DNA from: Deltaproteobacteria bacterium | Lineage (GTDB): Bacteria > DRYD01 | Assembly (NCBI GenBank): GCA_028276365.1 | Contig: JAPYWL010000014.1 | Location: forward strand, 1 to 22,904 | Direction: 5' to 3' | Length of the DNA stretch: 22,904 nt | Shown: in pieces, positions 3,962 to 22,631 of the stretch | Layout: each line of letters starts with the position of its first letter | Position numbering within the stretch: the stretch's first letter is position 1 | Made by a program: the position numbers and the translations under genes | The notes under the pieces: model-generated | Seen by the model: the letters and a program-made list of their open reading frames with translations, nothing else | The model's database searches: none | Told to the model about the DNA's origin: nothing

Positions 3962-3993
3962 TTTACTCACTCCCTTTATTCTCATTTTGATAT

Positions 3994-4758: not shown

Positions 4759-4859
4759 AATCAAATATCCATATATATTCTTATATTACAATTATCTATC
4801 TATTAACTAGATTTTATAATTTATACTTTGCAATAAATTAAGCAAATTTAAACACTTTC

Positions 4860-5465
4860 CTAAAATTTAGTTATAAAATTTTTTAATAACATCATTCCAA
4901 ATTTATGCGACTTTTCAGGATGAAATTGAACCCCAATAATGTTTTCTCTTTGAAAACTGGATACAAAATCATGTATATAAAAAGTTGTAGTAAGGATATC
5001 ATCTTTATTATAGGATTCTACATAATAGCTATGAACAAAATAAAATCTCCATTCAGAAAATTCGCTACTAAAAAGATCACTATTTTTAATTATTTTAACG
5101 TAATTCCATCCCATATGTGGTATTTTATAAGTATCACTTACAAATCTTTTTGTTTCAGCGTCAATCCAAGATAATCCTTGTAATTCCCCTTCCTCACTTT
5201 TCTTAGTCATTAGTTGCATACCTAAACAAATACCTAAAATCGGCACTCTTTCCTTAAAAACTTTATATTCTAAAATTTCAATTAATCCTAATTTCTTTAA
5301 ATTAATTATACCATTATCAAAAGCTCCTACCCCAGGTAAAATAATTTTTTTAGCTTTTTCGATTTCATTTATATTTGAAGTTATTAATGCTTCAAAACCA
5401 ATTTTTTTTATCATATTATATACAGAACCAACATTACCCATATTATAATTTACTATTACTATCAT
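4860..5465 (-). CDS. hisH: HisH-like glutamine amidotransferase subunit
   Basis: Class I glutaminase of 201 residues that releases ammonia from glutamine for its HisF-type partner. The nucleophile Cys80 is in GICLGMQLM, and the His182/Glu184 pair is in GVQFHPEKS. The N-terminal VNYNMGNVGSV and the LPGVGAFDNG loop are typical of HisH. No other histidine genes are nearby. Its neighbours are a HisF lacking a catalytic Asp and a PP-loop sugar amidotransferase, so it most likely serves acetamidino-sugar formation. It starts three bases after the TGA of the upstream glycosyltransferase gene and in the same reading frame. A 95-base gap separates it from hisF. Confidence 0.93.
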   Translation of the reverse strand: MIVIVNYNMGNVGSVYNMIKKIGFEALITSNINEIEKAKKIILPGVGAFDNGIINLKKLGLIEILEYKVFKERVPILGICLGMQLMTKKSEEGELQGLSWIDAETKRFVSDTYKIPHMGWNYVKIIKNSDLFSSEFSEWRFYFVHSYYVESYNKDDILTTTFYIHDFVSSFQRENIIGVQFHPEKSHKFGMMLLKNFITKF

Positions 5466-5468
5466 AAT

Positions 5469-6884
5469 TCACTTTAAAATACTCTCAATAAATTTTCTAT
5501 AATTAGCTAAAGAATTAGATTTCCAAATATCTTCTATTTCAATATTCATATTATTATATGTAATGTTTTGTATTTTATTAATTATTTCATTTATATTATA
5601 ATCAACTTCCTCAAATAAATCATCTTTTTTTTCCAAAAATTCATTTTTGGGATTTCTAATTAATATAACTTTAACATTAAAAGCCAATGCTTCATACAAA
5701 ACAGTCGATTTTTCAAAAGATAATACAATATCGTAATTAATAAGGCTTTTATATAGATTATCATTATCTATTTTAATACCTATTTTAATAATTTGATTAT
5801 ATCTTTGATTTATAGCTACTCTTTCAGAGGGATGTGGTCTAAAGACTATTTCATATATATTTTTATCCAATAAATCATATAAATTCTTCACTAATTGATT
5901 ATAATACTCTACTAAGCTCCCTCCAGAAATAATTAAAATATACTTTTTATTTTTTTCTTTTTTTAAATTTAATGATTTAGTTTTCTCTTCTAAATAAGGA
6001 AAACCTATTTCCACTGTTTTTGATGGTATTCTAACATTGTTACTCCAAAACCTACCAAAAGTTAGGAAATAATCAGGTAAATACTCAGTTATATAATTAT
6101 GCAAACTATAATGGTAATTATAAGCTATATGATCTTTACCAATATACCCATGCTGTAACTCTAATATAATAATCCCATTTTTTTTAGCTAAATATATTAA
6201 ATCTGTGTATTTTCCATAATGAGCATCTTCTATTATCAATACCTTTGGCTCTAATTTTTTTAGCAATATACTGTAAAGAATATTGTTTATCCTTATAAAC
6301 TTGGATATACTAAAAAGATTATGTTTAAAATTTTCCAATGTTTTTACATCATATAATATTTTATTTTTATCACAAATATCTTTTAGATAGTTTAATAGCA
6401 ATATAATATTTTTTTGATCCTCCTTACTTACTAATAAGTATTTAGAAAGCTTTCTAAGTATTAAAACTATATCAATTGAATAAGATTTTATTTTTCTAGG
6501 TTCGTAAAAAAATAATCTATTAGAATATTCCAATAAGATAGTATCTTCAGGAAAAATACTATAAATTAAGTCATACAATCTATTAGTAAAATATTCTCCT
6601 TCCCATACATTATTAATAGCAGCTCCTATAATAGCTACATTGTATTTCTTTTTAATAAAAAATGGAAACTTTTTTATAGAATTTATCAAATAACTAATTT
6701 TCTTTTTGAAATTAATTTTTTTTAAATCTAAAGAGGCATGCGGTTCATCTAAACTATATCTCTTTTTTATGATGTGCCAAAGAAAATCAACTCTAATAAA
6801 AAGCCACATCGGTAAATTATTTAATTTAAATCTAAAATCTAAAATCTTAGGATCTTCCTCTAACTTTAGCAATTCTTCGTTCAT
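5469..6884 (-). CDS. Putative GT-B-like surface-glycan glycosyltransferase
   Basis: A soluble protein of about 471 residues. From the ATG at 6884, QHG lies at residues 244-246 within LELQHGYIGKDHIAYN, and FRPHPSE lies at about 348-354. QHG followed about 100 residues later by RPHP resembles capsule/Kdo-transferase-type and other CMP-sugar-using GT-B proteins. The segments SGGSLVEYY (about 320) and SFEKSTVLYEALAFNVKVI (about 385) fit the nucleotide-binding C-terminal domain. By position, next to a CMP-nonulosonate synthetase and decoration enzymes, it is the best candidate for the transferase that attaches the finished sugar, but the substrate is unproven. A GTG at 6902 would overlap the upstream gene; the ATG at 6884 follows its stop by one base and I prefer it. 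Confidence 0.6.
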   Translation of the reverse strand: MNEELLKLEEDPKILDFRFKLNNLPMWLFIRVDFLWHIIKKRYSLDEPHASLDLKKINFKKKISYLINSIKKFPFFIKKKYNVAIIGAAINNVWEGEYFTNRLYDLIYSIFPEDTILLEYSNRLFFYEPRKIKSYSIDIVLILRKLSKYLLVSKEDQKNIILLLNYLKDICDKNKILYDVKTLENFKHNLFSISKFIRINNILYSILLKKLEPKVLIIEDAHYGKYTDLIYLAKKNGIIILELQHGYIGKDHIAYNYHYSLHNYITEYLPDYFLTFGRFWSNNVRIPSKTVEIGFPYLEEKTKSLNLKKEKNKKYILIISGGSLVEYYNQLVKNLYDLLDKNIYEIVFRPHPSERVAINQRYNQIIKIGIKIDNDNLYKSLINYDIVLSFEKSTVLYEALAFNVKVILIRNPKNEFLEKKDDLFEEVDYNINEIINKIQNITYNNMNIEIEDIWKSNSLANYRKFIESILK

Positions 6885-6885
6885 A

Positions 6886-7614
6886 TCAAGCAATTTTATC
6901 ACCTATAAAATCTCTGGTTAATATAATTAATAAATCATTTTTTATATTCTCAAATAAAATAGAATGTCCTTTTCTATTTAAATGATGTAAATCCTTTAAA
7001 AAACATTCTTCGGGTTCAAAATCTTTATAAGCATTAACTAAAAAGTAATCAGCATTTTCCTCTAAAACTTTATTATACTTAATTATATTATCTTTTACTC
7101 TTGGGCTATGTTTAATAAAACCAATACAAGGTGGAGCAATTGGTATTACTATTACTTTCGCATTGTTATTTCTTAAAATATCAAAAATTGTTTTTACATT
7201 ATATTTAAATTCTCTTATCTTAACTCTTTCTATTTTTCTTATTGTTGTAAGAATATTATGGTACTTAGAAGCTAATTTTTGTACTATTCCTGATAATTTT
7301 AAGAAAGTAAAGAATTTAATTTCTTTTTCTTTAAGAGCTCTTGGAGCACAATCTACAATACCAAACTGCAGTATTACAAAATCAGGTTTATAAAGTGGTA
7401 ATTCCGTTTTTGCTTTCTCCAATAATTGTCTTGAATCTAATCCATAAACTACCATCGGATAAAATTCTATATCTTTAAAAGGTTTAAAAAAATTGATAAT
7501 CTTAAATACCCATGTATCTTCATAAAATATGTTTTCTTCTGCATATCGCGGCCCCCCTAATGAATCAGTAACAATAATCACTTTTTTTACTAAATTATGC
7601 CTACCCTGAACCAT
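6886..7614 (-). CDS. SGNH/GDSL-fold hydrolase or acyltransferase
   Basis: A 242-residue protein of SGNH fold. VTDSLGG places the nucleophile Ser18 near the start, and DLHHLNRKGH gives the Asp208/His211 pair. The block that usually contains GxND reads FGIVDCAPR, so the usual oxyanion-hole Asn is not present at that site. SGNH proteins in surface-glycan loci usually add or remove O-acetyl groups, so a role in trimming or O-acylating the nonulosonate or its glycan is likely but inferred. The ATG at 7614 has no clear Shine-Dalgarno. The TGA stop is one base before the preferred ATG of the glycosyltransferase gene, suggesting translational coupling. Confidence 0.7.
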   Translation of the reverse strand: MVQGRHNLVKKVIIVTDSLGGPRYAEENIFYEDTWVFKIINFFKPFKDIEFYPMVVYGLDSRQLLEKAKTELPLYKPDFVILQFGIVDCAPRALKEKEIKFFTFLKLSGIVQKLASKYHNILTTIRKIERVKIREFKYNVKTIFDILRNNNAKVIVIPIAPPCIGFIKHSPRVKDNIIKYNKVLEENADYFLVNAYKDFEPEECFLKDLHHLNRKGHSILFENIKNDLLIILTRDFIGDKIA

Positions 7615-7651
7615 CGGTTAGTATAAATTTATTTTAGTAAATTTAATAAAT

Positions 7652-8671
7652 TTAATAAATTAGTTTAATTTTATTTCTCATATCATTGTCTATCTCACTT
7701 ATTTGTTGATTAATTTTATTTATATCCTCTTCATAAGGAACAGTAAATGTCCCGCATTCAGCACAAACATTCAATTTTTGAAGCAAAAATTGCTCTCTTA
7801 TCCTTTTCATTTTCTCTGAGTAAAATACCTCTTTAATTGATTGGTAATTTAAATCTCCTAATTCTAAGCCAGCAGAAAAATCAGCACAACACAAAGCAAC
7901 TTTACCATCATAAGCAACTGTTAAAACATTAAATGGATAATAACAATAAAAATTTCTATCAATCTTTTTTAATTCAAAATATTCTTTTTCATCGAGCTGC
8001 ATAGCTTTAAAAACTCCATCCGAAAATTTTAGTGGCGGATAAACGAAATGAATATGTATTTTATCAACATAAGGTCCCCAAAGTTCAACAAATTCTTTTA
8101 ATTGTGTTCTTTTTGTTATTAATAAATTAATCTGAGTATGTGGCTTTTTCGGTAATTTTGATATAAATTCAGAAAAATTCTTAACATTTTCATAAATTAC
8201 TTCAAATTTTAAAGGATATCTATATTTTTCGTAAGATTCTTTATCTCAACCCTCTATAGAGAACTGAATTAAATCTATTTTAGACAAAGTTTCAAAATGT
8301 TTATTCAGTAAAGAGGCATTAGTAGATAAATGTATAATAAAGCCCATACTTTTTATTAAATCTACAATCTTATCAAATTCTGGATGTAAAGTAGGCTCAG
8401 CTGTAGAATAAAGTCTAACAGTATTTACCTTATTTTCCTTAGCATCATATATAATTTTTTTTAAAAGTGATAATTCCATAAATCCTTTCTTACGCTCATT
8501 AGGCATGAAATTTCTTGAACAAAAAGGGCATTTAGCGTTACAAGCTGCAGATATATCAATAATAATTTCCTTTAAATTAATTAATTTCTCCATTTTTTTA
8601 GTAAAGGGAAAAATTTTCCTTAAACTCCTTATACCCAAGATATTTTTGATATATTCTTTTAATTTCTTCAT
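7652..8671 (-). pseudogene. Radical SAM/SPASM enzyme gene interrupted by an in-frame TGA
   Basis: The full frame would encode 339 residues. CNAKCPFC (Cys44, Cys48, Cys51) is the radical SAM CxxxCxxC cluster motif. The C-terminal part, with VALCCADFSAGLELGDL and VCAECGTF, looks like a SPASM domain for an auxiliary Fe-S cluster. Codon 142 (8246-8248) is TGA. The same frame continues after it with good protein sequence (DKESYEKYRYP), and related radical SAM proteins commonly have Trp at this point (SxxGWDxESYEK), so a single TGG to TGA change explains it. The interruption leaves a 141-residue N-terminal piece and a C-terminal piece from which a Met at 8002 could start. I chose the ATG at 8671 because AAGGGGTGG precedes it; a GTG lies four codons upstream. 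Confidence 0.85.
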
Positions 8672-8712
8672 TATTTTTTCCACCCCTTATTTTTAAGAAT
8701 TACATTACTTAT

Positions 8713-8738
8713 GAATTCTACAAGAAATATTAGAATTC
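8713..8738. repeat. Perfect 8-bp inverted repeat between two operon genes
   Basis: GAATTCTA at 8713-8720 and TAGAATTC at 8731-8738 form a perfect 8-bp stem with a 10-base loop, in the 78-base gap between the CMP-sugar synthetase gene and the radical SAM gene. No T-run follows on the transcribed strand, so it does not look like a standard terminator. It may be a processing or stability hairpin in the long transcript, or a chance palindrome. Confidence 0.45.
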
Positions 8739-8749
8739 CTTTAAGATTA

Positions 8750-9457
8750 TTAAGATTTATCTATTAAAAATTTCTCTTTTAAAATTAATTCTGCAAGTTT
8801 AAAATCTATTTCATCATCAATATCTATAGAACTTAATCTATCCATTATATAAGCATAAATATTTTTTTTTAAGAAAAAGGTATTTTCAGATATAAATTTA
8901 TCAGTTTTACATATATAAATAGCCCCGTTTAATCTATAAAATTTAGGCAAATCCTGACTCCTTTTATCTTTAATGTCATCAGATACAAAATTTTCCATAC
9001 TTAAATCATCAGGTAAAGTATTGCACCATAAAGGAGAATAATCAACTTCACATACTGAAATTATAGCATCCGCATTTAATTTTATAATTCTTTCTATAGC
9101 TTCATCTATATGATACTCTTTTCTTAAAGGAGAAGTAGGTTGTAATAAAACAATAAAATCATATTTTTTATCCTCATTTTCTATAACATGTTTTATTACA
9201 TCTACCATCTTAGCAGTATCAGAAGCTAATTCTAATGGTCTTTTAATAACTTTTATATTATAATTTTTTACAATGTTAATAATTTCATCACTATCAGTAG
9301 ACAATACTATTTCATCAAGATACTTACTTTTTACGGCATTTTCGATTGTCCATAATAACATTGGTTTTCCTGCTAATGGTAAAATATTTTTATTTGGTAA
9401 TCTTTTACTTCCACTCCTTGCAGGAATTATAGCTAAAAAAGTCATTCCTTTATACAT
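8750..9457 (-). CDS. legF: CMP-nonulosonic acid cytidylyltransferase (LegF/PtmB/NeuA-like)
   Basis: Activates the nine-carbon acid with CTP to give the CMP-sugar used by glycosyltransferases. The 235-residue protein has the N-terminal signature AIIPARSGSKRLPNKNI followed by LAGKPMLLWTIENA. VLSTDSDEI, ELASDTAKM and FIVLLQPTSPLR are the substrate- and metal-binding segments typical of acylneuraminate cytidylyltransferases. The start at 9457 is preceded by GAGGGG about eight bases upstream, better placed than for the Met at codon 5. It begins two bases after the stop of the PtmE-like gene. Whether the substrate is legionaminic, pseudaminic or neuraminic acid cannot be read from sequence; the gene context favours legionaminic-type. 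Confidence 0.92.
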   Translation of the reverse strand: MYKGMTFLAIIPARSGSKRLPNKNILPLAGKPMLLWTIENAVKSKYLDEIVLSTDSDEIINIVKNYNIKVIKRPLELASDTAKMVDVIKHVIENEDKKYDFIVLLQPTSPLRKEYHIDEAIERIIKLNADAIISVCEVDYSPLWCNTLPDDLSMENFVSDDIKDKRSQDLPKFYRLNGAIYICKTDKFISENTFFLKKNIYAYIMDRLSSIDIDDEIDFKLAELILKEKFLIDKS

Positions 9458-9459
9458 AA

Positions 9460-10539
9460 TTATATCCCCTCAAGAATTTTTAATGTTTTTTTATATTCTT
9501 CCCATTGTCCAGTATCAAAATAATCACTTTCATTAATAGGATATGCTAGTACTTTATAATTATTTTTTATAAGCATATTAATCAAATCTGGCATATCTAA
9601 ATATTCCTTTTCAGGAACCAATTTAAGTATCTCCTTATTTATTAAATATACCCCTGTATTTACTTGGAAAACTATTTCCGGCTTTTCATTAATTTTCTTA
9701 ACTAAATTATTCTTACCTGTTTCTACTACTCCATATGGTACTTTATAATGTTTAATAGAAGTAACGGTTGTGAAATCTGCCTTTAGATCTTTATGAGTTT
9801 GTAATACTTCTAAATAATTAATTTTCGTTAAAACATCGCAATTAGATAAGAAAAAACAATCGCTATTGACATCTTTTAATAAATACAAGGATCCTGCAGT
9901 TCCATAAAAATCCTCCTCATATATAAAATTTAATAAGTAATCCTTATTTATACTATTAAAATATGCTTCTACTAATTTAGCTTTGTAATTAAGGATCAAA
10001 ATAAAAATATAAAATCCAAATCTCTTAAAACTATCAATAATATGTTCTATAATTGTTTTGTCTTTAAGTGGTAATAATGGTTTAGGTAAAACTTTTGTAA
10101 AAGGATCTAATCTAGTTCCTTTACCACCAGCCATAATTACCACAGGCAATTCAATCTTTTGAGGAACATAATCATTTAATAAATAACTATCAAAATTTTC
10201 CTCAAATAAATCAGTCCAAACAATAAAATCTATAACCTTTTTTTGCTCATTAACAATTGGTAAAACCTCTATTTTATTTTCTAACATTATTTTTTTCGCT
10301 TTTTCCTTTGTTTCATATGAATATATAAACTTTGGATTTTTATTATATACATTTTCAATTGTTCCTTCTATTTTTCCAGTGCTTAAGATATATCTTCTTA
10401 TATCTCCATCCGTAATTGTTCCCAAAAGCTGACCATTTTCATCAACAACTATTAAAAGTTTTTCTCCAATTTCGTTAAATTTTTTTAGCGCCTCTTTAAT
10501 ATTAATATTGGGATAAGTAAGAATATCTTTATATCGCAT
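9460..10539 (-). CDS. CBS-domain sugar-phosphate nucleotidyltransferase (PtmE-like)
   Basis: A 359-residue protein. Residues about 1-115 are two CBS modules (GTITDGDIRRYIL; VLPIVNEQKKVIDFIV), and from about 130 onward lies a nucleotidyltransferase domain with MAGGKGTRLDPFTKVLPKPL. The same architecture is found in Campylobacter PtmE, which makes GDP-glucosamine for the GDP-based legionaminic acid route, so this is the likely first dedicated step here. The CBS pair may bind a nucleotide and regulate activity. The ATG at 10539 is preceded by AAGAGG, which overlaps the final codons of the aminotransferase-like gene, so the two were probably translationally coupled. The guanine specificity is inferred from the family. 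Confidence 0.85.
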   Translation of the reverse strand: MRYKDILTYPNINIKEALKKFNEIGEKLLIVVDENGQLLGTITDGDIRRYILSTGKIEGTIENVYNKNPKFIYSYETKEKAKKIMLENKIEVLPIVNEQKKVIDFIVWTDLFEENFDSYLLNDYVPQKIELPVVIMAGGKGTRLDPFTKVLPKPLLPLKDKTIIEHIIDSFKRFGFYIFILILNYKAKLVEAYFNSINKDYLLNFIYEEDFYGTAGSLYLLKDVNSDCFFLSNCDVLTKINYLEVLQTHKDLKADFTTVTSIKHYKVPYGVVETGKNNLVKKINEKPEIVFQVNTGVYLINKEILKLVPEKEYLDMPDLINMLIKNNYKVLAYPINESDYFDTGQWEEYKKTLKILEGI

Positions 10540-10543
10540 TTTA

Positions 10544-11490
10544 TTAACCTCTTAAAGCACTTTTCAATTTAGAAAATAAATAATTAAAATCTTCATCATT
10601 ATAATTTTCAAAAAGTGGAATAGATAATAATTTGTCATATAATAAGCTATTACTTACCTTGTCAGACCAATGAATCGGAAGATATATATTATAATTTATT
10701 AAATCTTTTCTAATTTTATCTCTTTTGTCATGCTTAATTACAAAGTAAGAAAAACAAGCCGGATTTTTATTAACACATAAATCGCCAAATTCATTATAGA
10801 GCTTAAAAAATCTTTCTTTTCTTATAGACTGTATAAAATCCCAATCCATTTTAGAAAGCAAGTAAATTGATTGATCAGAGATATAATATATATCTTTTTG
10901 GTTATCTATTATATCCTCTGCTTCCTTAAAAATTGAAAGATAATTTTCCTCTGTACCTTTTTTACTATAAATGTAATCATACTTTAATTTTTTTGCTATA
11001 TATTTTTTTGGTGAGAATAAATTATCCTTTTCTAAACTGAATTTTAAGTTTAAGTTCGTCTTAATCAAACTTCCATCAGCTAAATGTGAAATCTTTCTAT
11101 AACTATTAAATCCAAACCATCTTGGAAAGTTATATCTATTCTCAAAATCGTAAAAAAATACATTATCTTCTATAAGTATCTTACTTTTTAGTAAATCAAC
11201 ATCTAAATTTTGATAAACTCCAAAATAATTTATTATATAAATAATATCAAAGTCTTTATGCCAAACACTATCCATATTAATACTAAGATCCTCTTTTATT
11301 TCATAAAATTCAAAATTGCAATTTTCTTGCTTAAAAATATTAAGTATTTCTTTACAAAGAAATTAGGGATTAAATATTTTAAATTTTTATGGTTTCTTAT
11401 AAATACTCTTAATGAACTTCTACCAGAATCTGTATAATAGATTGAATCTTCGGGTAATTTAAATTCTATTTCTCCACCGATAGGTCTCAT
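10544..11490 (-). pseudogene. DegT/DnrJ-like aminotransferase-fold gene with a frameshift
   Basis: The first 64-codon frame begins MRPIGGEIEFKLPEDSIYYT and continues with DSGRSSLRVFIRN. It shifts phase close to 11356-11358. Restoring one A/T pair in that short run rejoins it to the 10544-11275 frame, through LIPNFFCKEILNIFKQEN and INMDSVW, to give about 315 residues. FGFNSYRKISHLADGSLI resembles the PLP-lysine region of DegT-type aminotransferases, and PIHWSDKVSN with DKLLSIPLFENYNDEDF is like their C-terminus. It is shorter than canonical LegC (about 380 residues). The shift could be a true mutation or a sequencing error; as written, the protein is truncated. It may have supplied the amino group of the sugar precursor. 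Confidence 0.78.
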
Positions 11491-11597
11491 CTCTTAATCC
11501 CCAAATTTAAAATTTTTGATTATCAACAATAAGTAATTTTAACTTTTAGTATATTTATTTTTTAGATTTTTTTTAAATCAATTTAAGCTTTCTTTAT

Positions 11598-12266
11598 TTA
11601 TAAAATCTCCTTAAGTAGCATAAAACTTTCTGCATATTTAGTATTACACATTGAACCTCTGTAAGTAGCAAGTGCTTTTATATTATCTAAATTTCTAGGA
11701 AAAGGATGAATACCTAACTCTTTTTCATAAATTTTAACAATTTCTATTTTTTTATCCATATAATCCGTTATGTCTATAAAGACATTAGGGATAAACCAAG
11801 AAGATTGTATTGGAACTGCAAAATCTGTTTCTGAAATTGTTTCCATCATCAACACCCTCTTTATGAATGGATACCTAAACGATTTTGATGCAGACCAACA
11901 AGCCTTAAACACTACTTGGTGATCCGTATGAACATCATCCTTAAACGGTATATATAATATGGAAGGTTTTATTATTTTAATTACATTTGATATTTTTTCA
12001 ACTAAATCTTTTTGTGGATATGTATCTATTCTCATTGTAGGTAAATTTAAATCTATAACATCGTCAAATTCATAGGCTTTTGCTACCTTATTTAAAATAG
12101 TGTTTCTATAAAAGATATCATCTTTTGTAAAGCCTTGTTCTTCGTGAATTCCGGTTATATTAAGCCAAAATATTTTATCACCTAAACTTTTATGTTTTAA
12201 TAGAGTTCCACCTGCTCCTAGGGTTTCATCATCAGGATGTACTGAAATAACTAATACTTTTCTCAT
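11598..12266 (-). CDS. PIG-L family N-deacetylase
   Basis: Zinc-dependent deacetylase of 222 residues that removes N-acetyl from amino sugars. The N-terminal SVHPDDETLGAGGTL carries the His-Pro-Asp-Asp metal motif, and DDVHTDHQVVF supplies the later His ligand region. It starts inside the stop of the formyltransferase gene (ATGA overlap) with AGGAGAG nine bases upstream, so the two are almost certainly co-translated. The pair suggests an acyl swap: this enzyme uncovers an amine and the formyltransferase (or the amidotransferase trio) then re-modifies it. The actual substrate, free nonulosonate, sugar nucleotide or glycan, is unknown. A gap of about 107 bases to the next gene shows no clear feature. 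Confidence 0.88.
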   Translation of the reverse strand: MRKVLVISVHPDDETLGAGGTLLKHKSLGDKIFWLNITGIHEEQGFTKDDIFYRNTILNKVAKAYEFDDVIDLNLPTMRIDTYPQKDLVEKISNVIKIIKPSILYIPFKDDVHTDHQVVFKACWSASKSFRYPFIKRVLMMETISETDFAVPIQSSWFIPNVFIDITDYMDKKIEIVKIYEKELGIHPFPRNLDNIKALATYRGSMCNTKYAESFMLLKEIL

Positions 12267-13156
12267 AATAGATACTCTCCTACCTTGGGTAATAAATCAA
12301 ATTCATGTTCAATTATTTTAATACAATTATCGTAAGCTTTAACAATGATATTTTTACTTACTGGATCAACAAAAAGTATTTTACCTGGCTCAATGTTTTT
12401 TAAATTATTACATTCTATTTCCTTAACCTTCCATATTTTAATTTTATTTCCTTTGTAAATTAAATGTGCTCCAATATAAGGTTTTGTTAATCCTCTAACT
12501 AAATTATAAATAGCTCTACTACTCATTCTAAAATCAATTTTCCCATCTTCCTCCGTTCTCTTTCTCCAATAATTAGCCCTAGAATGATCTTGAGGAATCC
12601 TCATATAATTAAAATTCTCTAGATTTGGTAAAAAATCATTAATTTGTTTTTTAGCTGTCTCTATAATCTTATTATATAAAGACATCGCATCATCTTCATA
12701 AGTTATAATTACCTTTTCTTGACTTAAAATATCTCCTGAATCTACTCCCTCATCCATGAAAAAAAAAGTAGATGCTGTTTCCTCAAGTCCAAGAACTAAA
12801 GCCCAAATGATAGGATGCCTACCTCTATTTTGTGGAAGTTTAGCAGGATGATAACCAATCACCCCATGCCTTGGTAAATCTAATATTTCCTTCTTAAGTA
12901 TTCTAGACCAACCAAAGCAAAATATATAATCCAAATCTAATTTCTTTAATTTTTTCACTACTTCACATGCATTTATATCTATTACTTTCATTATTTCTAT
13001 ATCATTTAATATACATAAAGGTTCTAGATCAACATAATCCGAATTAATCCCTTTATTACTTTGAGTAATAACTAAAGATGGTTTATAGTTTTTTTCAATT
13101 AAATATTTTAATATCTCAAAAGAAAATTTTACATTACCAATATATGCAAATTTCAT
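12263..13156 (-). CDS. Sugar N-formyltransferase (methionyl-tRNA formyltransferase fold)
   Basis: Likely transfers formyl from N10-formyltetrahydrofolate to an amino sugar. About 297 residues from the ATG at 13156; an upstream TTG at 13171 would overlap neuC and is less likely. GYHPAKLPQNRGRHPIIWAL matches the HGSLLPxxRG active-site loop, with the catalytic His kept, and FFMDEGVDSGDILSQ contains the catalytic Asp. The canonical Asn two residues before the His is Gly here. A C-terminal OB-like domain follows (KIKIWKVKEIE, GKILFVDP). This variant is distinct from housekeeping Fmt, and its place between NeuC and PIG-L points to formylation of the nonulosonate precursor. Folate supply comes from general metabolism; folE nearby is probably coincidental. 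Confidence 0.85.
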   Translation of the reverse strand: MKFAYIGNVKFSFEILKYLIEKNYKPSLVITQSNKGINSDYVDLEPLCILNDIEIMKVIDINACEVVKKLKKLDLDYIFCFGWSRILKKEILDLPRHGVIGYHPAKLPQNRGRHPIIWALVLGLEETASTFFFMDEGVDSGDILSQEKVIITYEDDAMSLYNKIIETAKKQINDFLPNLENFNYMRIPQDHSRANYWRKRTEEDGKIDFRMSSRAIYNLVRGLTKPYIGAHLIYKGNKIKIWKVKEIECNNLKNIEPGKILFVDPVSKNIIVKAYDNCIKIIEHEFDLLPKVGEYLL

Positions 13157-13160
13157 AATA

Positions 13161-14327
13161 TTAGATATCAATATTTATATTATAAAAAGATTTTTCTATA
13201 GAATCTATATTATATTTTTTTAGGATATCCTTTATTTTTAGAGCACTATTGCCATCTCCATATGGATTGATTACATCTTTTATACTATTTCGAAAATCCT
13301 TATCATAAATTAATTCTAAGGCCTTTCTTATTTCATCTTCTCTTGGATTACAATCAATTACACTTTTTGCCTTTATCCTTCCCTTTTGTCTATCTCCTAT
13401 ATTTATTGTAGGAACTTTAAAAGATGGAGCTTCTACTATTCCACTAGAAGAATTACCAACAACTGCATCTACATATTTCATAAGAGATAAATAATTTAAT
13501 TGTCCTAATGAATTAAATGCTAATGCTTTATCGCTATTTTCTTTAACAAACTCTTCTATTAGCTTAATTATTCTCCTTCCTTCTGTATCTGCATTTGGTT
13601 TCGTAAATATAAGCAATGTATCATTAAGTTCTTTTAAAACATTTAATAATACCATAAATTCCTTTTCCGATTCATTTTCCCTTAATGTTACTGGATGATA
13701 AGTTATTAATAAATTTTTATTTTTAAACTTAATACCAAGTTTTTTTTCTATTTCATTTTTACTTAAAAGCCTAAGTTTTTTTATATTATCAATCCCCAGT
13801 GCTCCTACATTAAACACTCTTTTAGGATCCTCTCCCAATTGTATAACTTTTTTCCTGTATTCTTCAGTAGAAGTGAAATGTAAATAAGATAACTTTGTTA
13901 TAGCATGTCTTATTCCTTCATCTATTAATCCTTCTGTAGCTTCCCCACCATATAGATGCGCTATTGGTATCCTATTTATAAAACTTGATATAGCAAAAGC
14001 AAGTGCTTCAAATCTATCCCCAAGTACAACTGTAATATCAGGTTTTAATCTATTCAAAGCATCTGTATATCCTATCATTCCTAATCCCATTGATTTTACT
14101 ATTCCTGATGGAGTATCCGAACTTAGCAGCATCTCAATTTTCTCATTTATAATAAATCCATCATTTTCTATCTCTTTATATGTTAATCCAAATTCAGGAC
14201 TTAAGTGCATGCAAGAAGCTACAATCTGCAATTCCAAATCAGAATCATTCTTTATTTCATCCATTAGAGGCTTTAAAAGACCATATTCTGCTCTAGTTCC
14301 TGTAAAAACACAAATTCTTTTCTTCAT
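13161..14327 (-). CDS. neuC: Hydrolysing sugar-nucleotide 2-epimerase (NeuC/LegG-like)
   Basis: Splits a UDP- or GDP-linked HexNAc derivative and inverts C2, releasing the ManNAc-type six-carbon sugar for NeuB. The 388-residue length fits the family. VFTGTRAEYGLLKPLM at the start, LGDRFEALA, AHLYGGEATEGLIDEGIRHA and GNSSSGIVEAP are the conserved blocks of the UDP-GlcNAc 2-epimerase GT-B fold. Its ATG overlaps the TGA of neuB (ATGA). With a LegB-type dehydratase and a PtmE-like enzyme in the same array, the substrate is probably a 2,4-diamino-2,4,6-trideoxy sugar nucleotide rather than UDP-GlcNAc, which is inference. Confidence 0.93.
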   Translation of the reverse strand: MKKRICVFTGTRAEYGLLKPLMDEIKNDSDLELQIVASCMHLSPEFGLTYKEIENDGFIINEKIEMLLSSDTPSGIVKSMGLGMIGYTDALNRLKPDITVVLGDRFEALAFAISSFINRIPIAHLYGGEATEGLIDEGIRHAITKLSYLHFTSTEEYRKKVIQLGEDPKRVFNVGALGIDNIKKLRLLSKNEIEKKLGIKFKNKNLLITYHPVTLRENESEKEFMVLLNVLKELNDTLLIFTKPNADTEGRRIIKLIEEFVKENSDKALAFNSLGQLNYLSLMKYVDAVVGNSSSGIVEAPSFKVPTINIGDRQKGRIKAKSVIDCNPREDEIRKALELIYDKDFRNSIKDVINPYGDGNSALKIKDILKKYNIDSIEKSFYNINIDI

Positions 14328-15331
14328 ATTTCTATTATATCATCCTCTTTAAAATCTTTTATAGCATTTTTACCCAAAACTTCATACCATCTCATAGGAG
14401 AGATTCCAGTTCCTGGCCTTTTAACAGTGATATTATCTTCAGTAAAAATTTCCCCTTTTCTTATATTCCTTCTAGCTACTATACTTTTTCTTACGATATC
14501 TCTATTTTTTATTTCAGATTTAGAAGGTTTTTTTATTCCATTTCCCAAAGCTTTTTCAATATTTCTTATTGCATCTATCATTGCTTTAAGCTCGTAAGGC
14601 TCTAAACTTGCTCTATGATCTGGCCCTTCCATATTCTTATCAAGAGTAAAATGTTTCTCTATAATACTTGCTCCCAAAGCAGCTGCTGCTATTGGCACTT
14701 CAATTCCCAAAGTATGATCAGAATACCCTACTTTAACCTTAAAAGCTTCTTTTATAGTAATCATTGCCAAAAGATTAACATCTTCATAAGGAGTAGGGTA
14801 TTCAGTATTAGAATGTAATAAAGTTATATTTTCTCTTTCTGTTCCATTTGAGATTAGAATATCTAATGCATCTTCTATTTCTCCTAAATCTGCCATACCT
14901 GTGGAAAGAATAATTTTTTTTCTTAGTTTACCTATTTTCTCTAAATAAGGTAAATTAGTAATTTCTCCACTTGGAATTTTAAATATTTCAAGCCCTAAAC
15001 TATGTAAAAACTCTATACTTTGGAAATCAAAAGGAGTTGATAAAAACATAATCCCCACTTTATCACAATACTCTTTAAGCTCTACGAAATCTTCAAATGA
15101 TAATTCTAATTTTTTTACCATTTCTAGTTGAGATTTATTTTCTCCTGTATTTAGTTTTTGATATTCAGCTTTAGGGGCATGCTTAGAAATAACTTCTTCT
15201 GTTTTAAAGGTTTGAAATTTAATAGCATCAGCACCACATTCCCTTGCTACTTCAATCATTTTTTTAGCAATTTCAATGTTTCCATTATGATTAACACCTG
15301 CTTCAGCTATTATAAATATTTTACTTTTCAT
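14324..15331 (-). CDS. neuB: N-acyl nonulosonic acid synthase (NeuB/LegI-like)
   Basis: Condenses a six-carbon amino sugar with phosphoenolpyruvate to form the nine-carbon acid. 335 residues: an N-terminal TIM-barrel NeuB domain (IAEAGVNHNGNIEIAKKMI, DAIKFQTFKTEE, PSGEITNLPYLE, GYSDHTLGIEVPIAAAALGA, KHFTLDKNMEGPDHRASLEP) and a C-terminal antifreeze-like SAF domain (RRNIRKGEIFTEDNI, PGTGISP). The ATG is preceded by AGGGTG. It lies one base past the FemAB-like gene stop and overlaps neuC, so the three are one translational unit. Separation between LegI, PseI and sialate NeuB needs a phylogeny; the pathway context supports LegI. Confidence 0.95.
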   Translation of the reverse strand: MKSKIFIIAEAGVNHNGNIEIAKKMIEVARECGADAIKFQTFKTEEVISKHAPKAEYQKLNTGENKSQLEMVKKLELSFEDFVELKEYCDKVGIMFLSTPFDFQSIEFLHSLGLEIFKIPSGEITNLPYLEKIGKLRKKIILSTGMADLGEIEDALDILISNGTERENITLLHSNTEYPTPYEDVNLLAMITIKEAFKVKVGYSDHTLGIEVPIAAAALGASIIEKHFTLDKNMEGPDHRASLEPYELKAMIDAIRNIEKALGNGIKKPSKSEIKNRDIVRKSIVARRNIRKGEIFTEDNITVKRPGTGISPMRWYEVLGKNAIKDFKEDDIIEI

Positions 15332-15332
15332 A

Positions 15333-16334
15333 CTACACCCTATATTTTAAAAATTTTTGCTCATTTGATTTAGATATATTACAAAATTCCTTATATTTAT
15401 CATACATAAATATTATCCCACCTACATAAAAAGGCAAAATTAGCTTAGAAAATTTTCTTTTGAATAAAAAAAGACTATCATTAGGATCCTTTGTTCTACC
15501 ACCACCTAGTACTAAATATTTTTTTTTCATAGATAAGTAGTAATTAACTGCTTCATTTAATAATAAATAATTTCCTTTTAAATTATACTTTAATGGATCA
15601 TTTGCAGAAAGATGGTAATAAACAATATCACTGCCCTCTAAAAAATATGCCATCGAAATAACTTCATTATCCTTATAAGCTACAAACAACTTACTAAAAG
15701 ATAAAGCATTTAATCCTTTAAAATAATTCTCATCAAAGTAATAAAAATTACTAGCATTATTTCTATCCATTGTTTGATAATATAGATAAATAAATTTCTC
15801 AAGTATTTTATTTTTTTTTTCTTCTGTTTCCATTATTTCTATTCTATATGTAAAATCCCTTTCCATTTTTCTTAGAATATTTCTAGTAGTTGAATTATAA
15901 TTTTTAAAAATCTCCTCTTTAGATAGAGTTAAATCAATAACTACAATATCTCTATTATATTCAAAAAAATCGAGATAATCTGATAAATAAACTAAATAAG
16001 AATCAAAGGGATTAAATCTTATAAATCCTGCTACTATAAAATTCTCTACACAATATTTCTTATATGAATTCATTGCTTTATTCAAAAAAATCTTATCTTG
16101 TGTATTTGTATAAATACCTCCATATCCATATACGCTTTCTATATCAAAATATGGTTTATCTATTATTACATTACCAATTGAACTAATTTTCTTTTTTATA
16201 GCAACATTATAAAAAATTTTATCATCTTCAGAATATAAAAACTCAAAAATATCATCATCTTTAGTAAGATATAGCGAAATATAATCTTTATTATAATATG
16301 GATCATTAAAAAGATCAAATTTTAATATTATCAT
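15333..16334 (-). CDS. FemAB/GNAT-like acyltransferase
   Basis: A protein of about 333 residues resembling FemAB/FemX-type double-GNAT proteins found in surface-sugar loci. Residues from about 135 on have FKNYNSTTRNILRKM, then a GNAT-like segment (LFVAYKDNEVISMAYFLEG), YYHLSANDPLKYNLKGNYLL and LGGGRTKDPNDSLFLFKRKF, all typical of this group. It probably transfers an acyl or aminoacyl group to an amino sugar, perhaps filling the LegH acetyltransferase role, which I do not otherwise find; this is inference. The frame is open to a start at 16358, but the ATG at 16334 overlaps the methyltransferase TGA (ATGA), the arrangement used elsewhere in this array, so I prefer it. Confidence 0.68.
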   Translation of the reverse strand: MIILKFDLFNDPYYNKDYISLYLTKDDDIFEFLYSEDDKIFYNVAIKKKISSIGNVIIDKPYFDIESVYGYGGIYTNTQDKIFLNKAMNSYKKYCVENFIVAGFIRFNPFDSYLVYLSDYLDFFEYNRDIVVIDLTLSKEEIFKNYNSTTRNILRKMERDFTYRIEIMETEEKKNKILEKFIYLYYQTMDRNNASNFYYFDENYFKGLNALSFSKLFVAYKDNEVISMAYFLEGSDIVYYHLSANDPLKYNLKGNYLLLNEAVNYYLSMKKKYLVLGGGRTKDPNDSLFLFKRKFSKLILPFYVGGIIFMYDKYKEFCNISKSNEQKFLKYRV

Positions 16335-17035
16335 AATTTTCTTACAGCTAAACACCATTCTTTAATAACATCCTTATTATTTACACCATCGTAATAATAA
16401 TCATTTCTATGGATAAATTCAATTTTCATATATGGTTTATTGAATAATTTATATAAATCATCAAGTGTTGTATATCTTTGTAATCCTTTATTTGCTAAAG
16501 GCCCTATCTTAGGTATACCAGCATGATAATCCACCTCTTCAATATTTTCAAAACCATAAGTACCATCAGAAAAAGTCATCATATAAAACAATCCCCCAAT
16601 TTTCAATTTATCAAAAGCTTCATCTATTACTTTTAATGTATCATCAAAACTAATACAGTATAAACTTTCTATATCATATATACAATCATAATAATTATTA
16701 GGGAACTTTTGCAAAGAATCTCTATAATCTCCAATTTCTACAATTTCTAAAAATCTAAGTAAATTTTCTTCATCGAGCCTCTTTTTTAACTTAATGATTG
16801 CTGACTCAGATATATCAATACAAGAAACAGAAAACCCTTCCTTAGCGAGATACCAAACATTTGCTCCAGTACCGCAACCCAATTCTAAAAATCTTATTTT
16901 ACCTCTATTAGGAACATTATAAAAATTTTGGGCTACAAACCTAACAAATGGAATAGATGGATACTTACCCCATTCCTTATCCCTAAATATATTTTCCCAT
17001 ATAAATTTTAAATCTTTTATACCCCTTAGATTCAT
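16331..17035 (-). CDS. SAM-dependent methyltransferase (class I)
   Basis: A 234-residue class I methyltransferase. LELGCGTGANVWYLA at about residues 50-64 is the SAM-binding glycine-rich motif I, SVSCIDISESAI is the acidic ribose-binding loop, and YDCIYDIESLYCI is the post-motif II region. It has no membrane segments, so it acts in the cytoplasm, probably O- or N-methylating the sugar or its precursor. The substrate cannot be told from sequence. A good AAGGAAGG ribosome site precedes the ATG, and it lies 13 bases after the legB stop. The end overlaps the FemAB-like gene. Confidence 0.85.
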   Translation of the reverse strand: MNLRGIKDLKFIWENIFRDKEWGKYPSIPFVRFVAQNFYNVPNRGKIRFLELGCGTGANVWYLAKEGFSVSCIDISESAIIKLKKRLDEENLLRFLEIVEIGDYRDSLQKFPNNYYDCIYDIESLYCISFDDTLKVIDEAFDKLKIGGLFYMMTFSDGTYGFENIEEVDYHAGIPKIGPLANKGLQRYTTLDDLYKLFNKPYMKIEFIHRNDYYYDGVNNKDVIKEWCLAVRKL

Positions 17036-17048
17036 TGCTTACCTTCCT

Positions 17049-18041
17049 TTATATGTTATAAATCCAAGGTTTATAGTACTTTATGTTCTGTTTAAACCAT
17101 TCTATAGTTAGATCAATTCCTTGATCTATATTAATTTGAGGAATCCATCCCGTTATTTTTTTTAATTTTTCATTTGAACCAAGTAACCTTTCTACTTCAC
17201 TATTTTTAGGTCTAACTCTTAAATCCTCTTCTATTAATTTAACATCCGGATTAATTTTATTTATTATTTTTTCTGCTAAAGCATTAATAGATATTTCAAC
17301 CCCAGTACATATATTAATTTCCTGCCCTAATGCTTCATCCTTTTGTGAAATTTTTATAAAACCTTCTACTGTATCATCTACATATACAAAATCTCTAGTA
17401 GGGTTTAGTGAACCAATTCTAATTTCTTTATATCCAAATAAACATTGGCTAATTATAGTAGGAATAACTGCTCTAGCAGATTGTCTTGGTCCATAAGTAT
17501 TAAATGGTCTAACTATAATTACTGGTAAATTAAAACTTCTATAAAAACTTTGGGCTAAGTAATCTGCCGAAATTTTCGTAGCAGCATAAGGAGATTGTGC
17601 TTGCTTTATATGATTCTCATCTATAGGTACATATTTAGCAGTACCATATACCTCAGAAGTAGAGGTAATAATAACCCTTTGTATTGAAAAATCCAAGCTA
17701 GCTTCTAATATATTTAATGTTCCCTTTATATTAGTTTCTACATAACTCGCTGGTGAATAATAACTATAAGGTATCCCTATTAGAGCAGCTAAATGGAAAA
17801 CTACATCCACATTTTTTAAAGCTTTTCTAACAGATTCACTATCCCTTATATCACCTGTAATAACCTCTATTGAATTTAAAATATTTTTATCTAAAGTATC
17901 AAGCCATCCCCAACTGTTAAAAGAATTATATTTTACAAAAGCTTTCACTTTAGCAGACTTATCTATAAGTTTTTCAACAAGATGACTGCCTATAAAGCCT
18001 CCCGCTCCTGTTACTATAACTATTTTATCTTTTAATTTCAT
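17049..18041 (-). CDS. legB: Sugar-nucleotide 4,6-dehydratase (LegB-like, extended SDR)
   Basis: An NAD-dependent extended short-chain dehydrogenase/reductase of 330 residues. TGAGGFIGSH at residues 11-20 binds the dinucleotide, STSEVYG at 127-133 and YAATK with Tyr152/Lys156 form the catalytic set, and RPFNTYGPRQSARAVIP is the substrate-binding strand of nucleotide-sugar dehydratases. The sequence style fits LegB, which converts GDP-GlcNAc (or UDP-GlcNAc) to the 6-deoxy-4-keto sugar at the head of legionaminic acid synthesis. It is the first biosynthetic gene of the array. The 146-base gap before it is AT-rich and may contain the operon promoter, but I could not identify one confidently. Confidence 0.87.
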   Translation of the reverse strand: MKLKDKIVIVTGAGGFIGSHLVEKLIDKSAKVKAFVKYNSFNSWGWLDTLDKNILNSIEVITGDIRDSESVRKALKNVDVVFHLAALIGIPYSYYSPASYVETNIKGTLNILEASLDFSIQRVIITSTSEVYGTAKYVPIDENHIKQAQSPYAATKISADYLAQSFYRSFNLPVIIVRPFNTYGPRQSARAVIPTIISQCLFGYKEIRIGSLNPTRDFVYVDDTVEGFIKISQKDEALGQEINICTGVEISINALAEKIINKINPDVKLIEEDLRVRPKNSEVERLLGSNEKLKKITGWIPQINIDQGIDLTIEWFKQNIKYYKPWIYNI

Positions 18042-19659: not shown

Positions 19660-19815
19660 CTATAAAAAGAAAAAATAATATTAAAATAGCAGCTTTTAAT
19701 ATAACATATACAAATTTCCTTTATTTTTCATTTTATCTATCATACATATACATAATTTGAAAAAAATAAAAAAACTATTAAAAGGATTATTTTTATTCTT
19801 ATAGAAATACTTTAA

Positions 19816-19876
19816 TATAGGAGATGGCGTTCTCCCTATAACCGCTCCTTAACTATAGGAGCTAATAACGCCTACC
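19816..19876 (+). promoter_or_regulatory. Fluoride riboswitch aptamer (crcB motif)
   Basis: The sequence folds as the fluoride aptamer. TATAGGAGA (19816-19824) pairs with TCTCCCTATA (19831-19840), with one bulge, around a loop containing ATGGCGT. GCTCCT (19844-19849) pairs with AGGAGC (19857-19862). The loop GGCGTT (19826-19831) pairs with AACGCC (19867-19872) as the pseudoknot. The conserved ATGG, AACC and CCTAC positions match. The joining segment reads TAATAACGCC where many examples have TGATGxCGCC, so it is a mild variant. It lies in the leader of the antiporter-UspA operon and should sense fluoride ion. No promoter could be assigned with confidence in the AT-rich DNA before it. Confidence 0.92.
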
Positions 19877-19929
19877 ACTCTTAACTAATTTATTTACAAT
19901 TTAAAACAAAAAAGAAAGGAGTGGTAGGC
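19870..19929 (+). promoter_or_regulatory. Riboswitch expression platform: stem sequestering the Shine-Dalgarno
   Basis: GCCTACCACTC at 19870-19880 is perfectly complementary to GAGTGGTAGGC at 19919-19929, separated by 38 nearly unstructured A/T-rich bases. The right arm covers the end of the AAGGAG ribosome site (19916-19921) and reaches to one base before the ATG at 19931. The left arm takes the GCC (19870-19872) of the aptamer pseudoknot strand. Aptamer and stem therefore compete: without fluoride the stem hides the ribosome site, and with fluoride the pseudoknot weakens it. No T-run follows, so control is translational. The mechanism is inferred from pairing. Confidence 0.82.
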
Positions 19930-19930
19930 A

Positions 19931-21094
19931 ATGGATTCCTTATTTAAAGACGCTTCCCTATGGTTCTTGCTTATCCTTATATCTTCCTTAATATCCTTTA
20001 GATTAGGTATTACCACTGCTTTAATAGAAATATTAATTGGTATTATCTTTGGAAATATTATAAATATAGAAATAACAGAATGGGTTAAGTTTTTAAGCTC
20101 TGTAGGTGCAGTAGTATTAACATTCCTTGCAGGTGCTGAATTAGAAACTGAAATAGTAAAAAAATATTGGAAAGAATCAACTATATTAGGTTTAATGGGC
20201 TTCTTAGCTCCTTTTATTGGAGCTACCTTAATTTCATATTACCTTCTTAAATGGAATCTAAATCAATCCTTCATTGCTGGCTTAGCTTTATCCACTACTT
20301 CTGTTGCTGTTGTATATTCCGTTATGTTTGAAACCAAACTAAATGAAACAGAATTAGGAAAACTTATTTTAGCAGCATGCTTCGTAACTGATTTAGGAAC
20401 TGTTATAACACTTGGGTTAATATTCACTAAATTTGATCTAATGTTTTGGATTTTTGTTATTGTTATGATTATATTATCCTTTATACTACCTAAATTAAGT
20501 AAAGTATATTTTGAATATGTAAAGAATCATTCAAGTGAACCTGAAGTAAAATTTATATTATTTATACTTATTCTTTTAGGTTTCTTAGCAATAAAAGGAG
20601 GCAGTGAAGCAGTTCTACCAGCTTACATAGTAGGTGCTTTACTCGCTGATAATTTCTTAGCTAATAAAGAAATGGTTAAAAGATTAAGAGTACTAACAAT
20701 CTCTTTTTTAACCCCTTTTTATTTTATTAAAGCAGGAATATTAGTTGATCTTAAATCTGTAATATCTTATCTACCCTTAGTAATATTTTTCTTATTTGTA
20801 AAAACTATATCTAAGTTTATCGGATTATATCCCTTAGGTATGTTATTTAAATTCCCCAAAAAAGTAAATATTTATATCAATTTGTTAATGAGTACAGGTC
20901 TTACCTTTGGTACTATATGTGCTCTTTATGGCTTAAATAAAAGTATTATAGATAAAAATCAATATTCTATATTAGTAGTAGTAGTTATATTAACAGCTAT
21001 AATTCCTACAATAATAGCTCAACTCTTTTTCCAACCTAAAAAAAATGAAGTTAATTTTATAAATACTAAAAATATAGAAAAAGGAGGAGATTAA
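19931..21094 (+). CDS. Cation/proton antiporter, CPA2 (KefB/NapA-like) family
   Basis: A 387-residue membrane protein with about 11-12 segments and little else, so only the transport domain is present, without the TrkA-N or TrkA-C regions of Kef systems. TM-region landmarks are GAELETEIVKKYW (about 68-80), LALSTTSVAVVYS (118-130) and AACFVTDLGTVITLG (148-162). The ion-binding site has Thr153-Asp154 where electrogenic CPA2 members usually have Asp-Asp. It is the first gene under the fluoride riboswitch and so probably takes part in fluoride tolerance, either through cation/proton exchange that offsets HF-driven acidification or more directly. The stop lies two bases before the uspA-like gene. 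Confidence 0.85.
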   Translation: MDSLFKDASLWFLLILISSLISFRLGITTALIEILIGIIFGNIINIEITEWVKFLSSVGAVVLTFLAGAELETEIVKKYWKESTILGLMGFLAPFIGATLISYYLLKWNLNQSFIAGLALSTTSVAVVYSVMFETKLNETELGKLILAACFVTDLGTVITLGLIFTKFDLMFWIFVIVMIILSFILPKLSKVYFEYVKNHSSEPEVKFILFILILLGFLAIKGGSEAVLPAYIVGALLADNFLANKEMVKRLRVLTISFLTPFYFIKAGILVDLKSVISYLPLVIFFLFVKTISKFIGLYPLGMLFKFPKKVNIYINLLMSTGLTFGTICALYGLNKSIIDKNQYSILVVVVILTAIIPTIIAQLFFQPKKNEVNFINTKNIEKGGD

Positions 21095-21544: not shown

Positions 21545-22132
21545 CTATTTTTCTCTTATTTTGTCTTTAATAACATTATAAAAACCGCCAATAAAAGGAA
21601 CTAATAAAAATCCTAAAGGTCCTAAAATAGAAACTCCTACTATACTTAAACCACCTATTACTATATAATCCAAAATAGAATTAACTAATCCTTTGAAACC
21701 TGATAATAAAAATCCCTTAACAGAAGCTTTTAAAACATCATTTTTTAATTCCTTAGTTAATTCATTATTTTTAATTAACTCTCTTGCTTCTTTATTCACT
21801 TTGGAATATCCTTCAATAGCTCTGGTAATACCAAAAAAAGCTGGATAACTTATACTTAGTAAGCCTAAAATTAATGAAAGATTTTTTAAACCACCTACTA
21901 AATTTAATAAATTAGGAGAAGTACCTATATAATATCCTAAAAACGGAATACTATATAAAGGTATCATTACTCCTAATCCCTTAAAAAAACCCTCCTTAAA
22001 TGAATCTTTTATATTATTACTTATATCATCAAATGAAATTTTTATCTTACTTTCCTTATCCTTATAATTTAATAAAATCCCGTCCCAATATACTTTGCTA
22101 TCTAATTTATCTTTTATATTACTTAATAGCAT
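21545..22132 (-). CDS. Membrane protein of unknown function, paralogue A
   Basis: A 195-residue protein starting with a polar region that contains VYWDGILLNYKDKESKIKIS, followed by hydrophobic, glycine-rich stretches at about 50-70, 78-100 and 155-185. The C-terminal ISILGPLGFLLVPFIGGFYN-like segment is nearly shared with the neighbour at 22152-22631 (SILGPTGIFLAPFIGSIYN), as is the N-terminal WDxxxxNxxxKE pattern, so the two genes arose by duplication. I recognise no named family and no enzyme motif; the glycine-rich hairpin-like ends suggest membrane insertion or association. A GGGGG ribosome site precedes the ATG. The two genes lie 19 bases apart and are probably co-transcribed. Confidence 0.7.
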   Translation of the reverse strand: MLLSNIKDKLDSKVYWDGILLNYKDKESKIKISFDDISNNIKDSFKEGFFKGLGVMIPLYSIPFLGYYIGTSPNLLNLVGGLKNLSLILGLLSISYPAFFGITRAIEGYSKVNKEARELIKNNELTKELKNDVLKASVKGFLLSGFKGLVNSILDYIVIGGLSIVGVSILGPLGFLLVPFIGGFYNVIKDKIREK

Positions 22133-22151: not shown

Positions 22152-22631
22152 CTACTCTCCATATTTAGATAATAAAGATTCTTTAGTGAAATTATAGATA
22201 CTTCCAATAAATGGAGCCAAAAATATACCCGTAGGCCCTAAAATAGATATTGTAAATGATATTAACCCCGTTAATAATAAAGAATCAAAGACTCCATTAA
22301 TACCAGCCTTTACTCCAGATAATACAGCTGTTTTAAAAGCTATTTCTTTTATTTCTTTCTCATTTTTTAATCCATATAATTCAGTTAAACCAACTTTTAC
22401 ATTCTTATAAGTATCTATTCCTTTACCAATTGAACTAAATAAAGGATAAGCTACTGGATTTATAGAAACCAAAGTACCCTTTAAAGTCCCTTCTAACATA
22501 GAACCTACCGCTGTTTCACTTACATCATCATAATTTATATCCTCTTTTATTTCTTTCCCATCTTTATTTATCTTAAGGGAATCCCAAGTAAGATTATATT
22601 TTATAGAATTTGTTTTATTAATTTTATCCAT
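22152..22631 (-). CDS. Membrane protein of unknown function, paralogue B
   Basis: A 159-residue protein related to the downstream 195-residue one. The N-terminal LTWDSLKINKDGKEIKEDIN corresponds to the WDGILLNYKDKESK region of its neighbour. The middle, with GTLKGTLVSINPVAYPLFSS, is shorter than the equivalent region of the neighbour. The C-terminal glycine-rich hydrophobic part SILGPTGIFLAPFIGSIYNF is conserved between the two. A strong AAAGGAGG site precedes the ATG. Neither its location between the UspA operon and mutL nor its sequence indicates a function. Confidence 0.7.
   Translation of the reverse strand: MDKINKTNSIKYNLTWDSLKINKDGKEIKEDINYDDVSETAVGSMLEGTLKGTLVSINPVAYPLFSSIGKGIDTYKNVKVGLTELYGLKNEKEIKEIAFKTAVLSGVKAGINGVFDSLLLTGLISFTISILGPTGIFLAPFIGSIYNFTKESLLSKYGE

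Follow-up and report, generated by a model that had tools for sequence, protein, structure and literature searches.

Fluoride riboswitches act on transcription or on translation, those of Pseudomonas syringae and Burkholderia pseudomallei being translational controls (PMC13273304). In the crcB riboswitches of Bacillus cereus and Thermotoga petrophila, the 3' strand of the aptamer pseudoknot is at the same time the base of a competing stem; whether the pseudoknot is displaced is controlled by the linchpin pair A40-U48 (PMC8752731), and switching is tuned by the composition of the pseudoknot (PMC11077080). The locus described here lies on a stretch of DNA of 22,904 nucleotides, hereafter called the window. 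It has an RF01734 aptamer, probable translational control and the lack of intrinsic termination in common with the loci of P. syringae and B. pseudomallei; its own platform is a stem of 13 bp, 9 of which lie outside the aptamer. As in the riboswitches of B. cereus and T. petrophila, the competing stem is built on the pseudoknot 3' strand, and bases that could form the linchpin are present (PMC8752731, PMC11077080); the pseudoknot of T. petrophila is also G+C-rich (83%), whereas both of these crcB riboswitches end in intrinsic terminators and are transcriptional. We regard it as likely that the window carries a fluoride riboswitch which, by means of a thermally sized stem, allows an ion antiporter and a universal stress protein to be translated, most likely in the ordinary arrangement in which fluoride turns translation on. 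The locus adds another example of a known riboswitch type; translational fluoride platforms are already known.

The aptamer is the sole Rfam match of the window (Table 1). It was matched by cmscan over the complete model (1-64) with 53.9 bits against a gathering threshold of 34 and an E-value of 1.3e-12, which bears out the claim of a sequence-only reading that a complete crcB-type fluoride aptamer is present. Judged by this match, the RNA is a genuine member of the fluoride riboswitch family, and it can be expected to bind fluoride together with Mg2+. The P1 strands (19820-19823/19832-19835) can be extended across a bulged C by UAUA 19816-19819 and UAUA 19837-19840. The bases for the linchpin pair are present as A19865 and U19873, which we take to be the equivalents of A40 and U48 in the register of the T. 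petrophila aptamer. For comparison, genomes of bacteria and archaea were sampled with a sequence pattern that required GATGGNGTTC, which yielded at least 80 further aptamers with a locatable pseudoknot strand; the classified set of 82 comprised 80 of these, among the matches listed, plus the window and a riboswitch from a genome of the same phylum (G003). The pseudoknot GGCGU/ACGCC of the window, formed by the P1 loop and the 3' strand, consists of five Watson-Crick pairs, including a compensated C-G pair in the middle, where most aptamers have A-U and only 2 of the 82 among the matches listed have C-G (the other being L021). The joining segment TAATA, previously regarded as a mild variant, turned out to be a combination of variants found elsewhere in the sample (GCTAAT and GATAAC, both together in L049).

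Table 1 Features of the fluoride riboswitch and the genes behind it, in positions of the window.
Feature	Position	Strand	Basis
Fluoride riboswitch aptamer (RF01734)	19811-19881	+	cmscan
P1 hairpin GGAG/CUCC, loop AUGGCGUU	19820-19835	+	Rfam structure line and constrained fold
Pseudoknot 5' strand GGCGU	19826-19830	+	complements ACGCC 19868-19872
Pseudoknot 3' strand ACGCC and U19873	19868-19873	+	sequence
Stem left arm, 13 nt	19870-19882	+	fold, shuffles
Stem right arm, over AGGAG, ending 1 base short of the start codon	19917-19929	+	fold, shuffles
Shine-Dalgarno sequence AGAAAGGAG	19913-19921	+	complementary in all 9 nt to the 16S 3' end CUCCUUUCU
Antiporter, Na_H_Exchanger family (PF00999), 387 aa	19931-21094	+	Pfam, E 8.7e-44
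Universal stress protein (PF00582), 139 aa	21097-21516	+	Pfam, E 1.1e-34

The perfect 11-bp stem that had been read from the sequence is exact: GCCTACCACTC (19870-19880) pairs with GAGTGGTAGGC (19919-19929), and one base is left between the right arm and the ATG at 19931. Since U19881-G19918 and U19882-A19917 lengthen it to 13 bp (about -22.7 kcal/mol), the stem covers the whole of AGGAG (19917-19921) and not, as had been thought, the end of the Shine-Dalgarno sequence only. The 16S tail CUCCUUUCU was read in the relatives G001 and G004, as the 16S end was not found in the window's own genome (G000). The overlap of stem and aptamer consists of the GCC noted before (19870-19872) and additionally of U19873, that is 4 of the 13 pairs, and through these common bases the stem over AGGAG and the aptamer are mutually exclusive. 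The loop had been called AT-only; between the 11-bp arms, 33 of 38 bases are A or T and the remainder are three C and two G. No U-tract follows the stem, the tail being AAUGGAUUCC with at most three T in any 8 bases at the stem end, and a terminator search covering loops of 3-8 found no intrinsic terminator. Because of the lack of a U-tract, and with a stem over the Shine-Dalgarno sequence that excludes the aptamer, translational ON control, the direction proposed earlier, is the best reading.

Among the 82 classified aptamers (those among the matches listed, in crude classes of which some assignments are wrong, e.g. L053, which looks like a terminator), 36 showed a pairing of the aptamer end with the start codon region, 21 a terminator-like stem, 23 another arrangement and 2 no stem. 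In the common translational design of the sample, the pseudoknot strand, ACUCCU, doubles as the anti-Shine-Dalgarno sequence. The rarer C-G pair of the window makes its strand ACGCC unsuitable for this role, and its stem must therefore run further in order to reach the Shine-Dalgarno sequence. The earlier description as an unusually simple platform was not supported, since the common translational designs are simpler and, within the ribosome-site class among the matches listed, the window ranks first both in the strength of its stem and in the length of the residual stem. The riboswitches of PF00999-like antiporters (L052, L059, L071, L096, L104, L119 and others) are alike in that the proteins are 41-50% identical to the antiporter of the window and the start codon is near the aptamer, but most of them use ACUCCU directly as anti-Shine-Dalgarno sequence, with 0-4 bp outside the aptamer. 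In Acidobacteria (L019, L023, L033, L036, L047, L086, L097, L103), a second translational design was seen, with a near-perfect complement GAACTCCATCGTG of the P1 loop GCGAUGGAGUUC at the Shine-Dalgarno sequence or start codon; several of these anti-loop designs precede GTG starts, and a similar one is present in G003 (L003:1611-1687). In six of them (L019, L033, L036, L047, L097, L103) and in G003, a part of the aptamer sequesters the ribosome site as in the window, but it is the P1 loop GCGAUGGAGUUC that does so, whereas the window uses the 3' pseudoknot strand.

According to the mechanism that we propose, 19870-19882 would pair with 19917-19929 when fluoride is absent and would hide the Shine-Dalgarno sequence and the spacer up to the start codon. 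When fluoride is present, 19870-19873 would be held in the pseudoknot (19826-19830/19868-19872) and in the linchpin pair, so that the stem would lose the four base pairs nearest the start codon and be weakened to 9 of its 13 bp. At the probable high temperature of the host, the 9-bp remnant would then melt enough for ribosome entry, perhaps through a single-stranded AGAAA toehold. We modelled the bound state by barring the two pseudoknot strands and the linchpin bases from pairing, a treatment which leaves out pseudoknot energy, Mg2+ and kinetics. In this model, a 9-bp residual stem of -11.1 kcal/mol was still over AGGAG at 37 °C, and the cost of opening the region from the Shine-Dalgarno sequence to the AUG fell from 22.3 kcal/mol in the free to 12.8 kcal/mol in the bound state. 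When the site was delimited a little differently so that all candidates could be scored together, the costs were 22.1 and 12.4 kcal/mol, the bound value being, jointly with that of L057, the highest among 35 translational candidates from the matches listed, for which the median at 37 °C went from 12.8 to 5.4 kcal/mol. Since only 4 of the 13 pairs are blocked and 9 bp keep the Shine-Dalgarno sequence hidden, the pairing at 37 °C does not by itself reveal the mechanism, and the contrary statement of the sequence-only reading was too strong. Of its further claims, the fluoride riboswitch, the mutually exclusive stem and the ON direction are supported; freeing of the ribosome site by fluoride is not what the model predicts at 37 °C but is plausible at the high growth temperature to which reverse gyrase points.

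The host is probably a thermophile, because its genome and those of its relatives encode reverse gyrase, an enzyme reported to be ubiquitous in hyperthermophiles and absent from mesophiles (PMC6878951). TIGR01054 was above its cut-off in six of the seven genomes of the phylum. One of the six is the genome of the window, where a single 996-aa frame (G000:C23:7-2967) contains both the helicase and the topoisomerase part, with a sum of 676.5 bits against a cut-off of 471.7. The IVYWREL fraction of the window proteins was 0.443, a rough and composition-sensitive value that the low G+C content may bias, and the 16S G+C content of the relatives (56.4-57.6%) is mildly suggestive, not strongly thermophilic. 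This probable thermophile from a phylum of seven genomes has a very low G+C content (24.5% in the window). With extrapolated energies, the opening cost from the free to the bound state became 13.8 to 6.9 kcal/mol at 60 °C and 10.6 to 4.9 kcal/mol at 70 °C, which resembles what the other candidates, pooled irrespective of growth temperature, cost at 37 °C. In this model, exposure of the Shine-Dalgarno sequence in the bound state is plausible at 60-70 °C. A stem that blocks the ribosome site with such unusual strength is easiest to understand in a host living at high temperature, as its genome suggests, and the most economical reading would be that the length of the stem is matched to the growth temperature.

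The energies at 37 °C would also be expected of a real fluoride sensor with a leaky, weak or decaying platform that barely switches, the 9-bp remnant keeping translation low both with and without fluoride. In line with this, opening the Shine-Dalgarno sequence alone costs 10.4 kcal/mol in the free and 9.4 kcal/mol in the bound state at 37 °C, the top bound value of the 67 riboswitches scored from the matches listed. We nevertheless consider such a platform unlikely, as the costs enter the normal range at 60-70 °C and the perfect 13-bp stem and the compensated C-G pseudoknot pair suggest selection. Control of transcription, whether the stem acts as a terminator of atypical form or Rho terminates once translation is blocked, appears very improbable to us, even though the terminators of fluoride riboswitches in the sample (among the matches listed) usually are 11-13-bp stems overlapping the pseudoknot strand and a 2017 title cited in PMC13273304 points to a coupling of Rho to translational block in other riboswitches. 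The tail AAUGGAUUCC has no U-tract, for which reason an intrinsic terminator was rejected, the arm ends just one base before the start codon, and the loop, at 34-38 nt, is longer than one would expect of a terminator.

That the stem is a chance pairing independent of the aptamer is hardly credible, although G003, with the sole related riboswitch, does not share the platform. When the ribosome-site region was shuffled 5,000 times with its dinucleotides kept, no duplex with the 3' part of the aptamer was as strong as the real one (-22.6 kcal/mol; best shuffle, -17.1), none of 1,000 shuffles reached it when paired against the whole aptamer, and an uninterrupted Watson-Crick match of at least 11 was found in 6 of 20,000 mononucleotide shuffles. 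The sequestering stem is thus far beyond chance, and its arms sit exactly on the Shine-Dalgarno sequence plus spacer and on the pseudoknot strand; on the strength of the shuffles, we rejected a chance origin.

Searches at the level of genus, order, class and phylum for close homologues that might show covariation of the stem returned only G003 besides the window, with its different platform, and a scan of genome contigs with the antiporter as query found nothing. G003 (L003) holds the only other fluoride riboswitch among the seven genomes of the phylum, and it precedes an antiporter 49-51% identical to that of the window. There, the P1 loop and 3' arm AUGGAGUCUCCCUUU pair with GGAGGGAGACUCCAU, covering the Shine-Dalgarno sequence and the start codon with -25.7 kcal/mol, a strength equalled by 1 of 3,000 shuffles. 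Two different pairings that reach the same end in front of related antiporters support translational control. The window antiporter is 41-50% identical to ten proteins behind other fluoride riboswitches among the matches listed, and in frequency of association with the riboswitch, Na+/H+ antiporters come directly behind fluoride exporters (PMC11139923); a gene of this kind is thus ordinary for a fluoride riboswitch. The universal stress protein gene follows 2 nt behind the antiporter stop and is the probable second gene of an operon.

CrcB was found in G001, G004 and G005 and a relative of the antiporter in G000, G002 and G003; CrcB was not found in G000, G002, G003 and G006, nor CLC in G000. 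In these seven incomplete genomes and few cases, CrcB and the riboswitch-type antiporter never occurred together, a pattern that is only suggestive because the genomes are 71-90% complete. Since the aptamer removes only 4 of the 13 pairs, one could conceive of a gate with two inputs, in which fluoride opens the ribosome site only in a hot cell, so that translation needs both fluoride and high temperature, and in which the antiporter stands in for the missing CrcB channel of the lineage; we regard this combination as quite unlikely.

Elsewhere in the window, the adjacent minus-strand genes 21545-22132 and 22152-22631 encode proteins without Pfam match that are alike in layout, with a hydrophobic C-terminal half containing LGP.G..L.PFIG..YN, and these are possibly paralogues of an undescribed family of small membrane proteins. 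The minus-strand run 2858-18041 is, by its sequence, of surface-sugar type and includes a cytidylyltransferase-like protein (8750-9457), a NeuB-like synthase (14324-15331) and an NDP-sugar epimerase-like protein (17049-18041).

Taken as a fluoride-responsive translational switch, the locus places a riboswitch in control of an antiporter in a probably thermophilic lineage, in a genome in which no CrcB or CLC exporter was detected. Its platform seems non-functional at 37 °C and becomes sensible at the probable temperature of the host, which is a warning against folding such RNAs at the default temperature.
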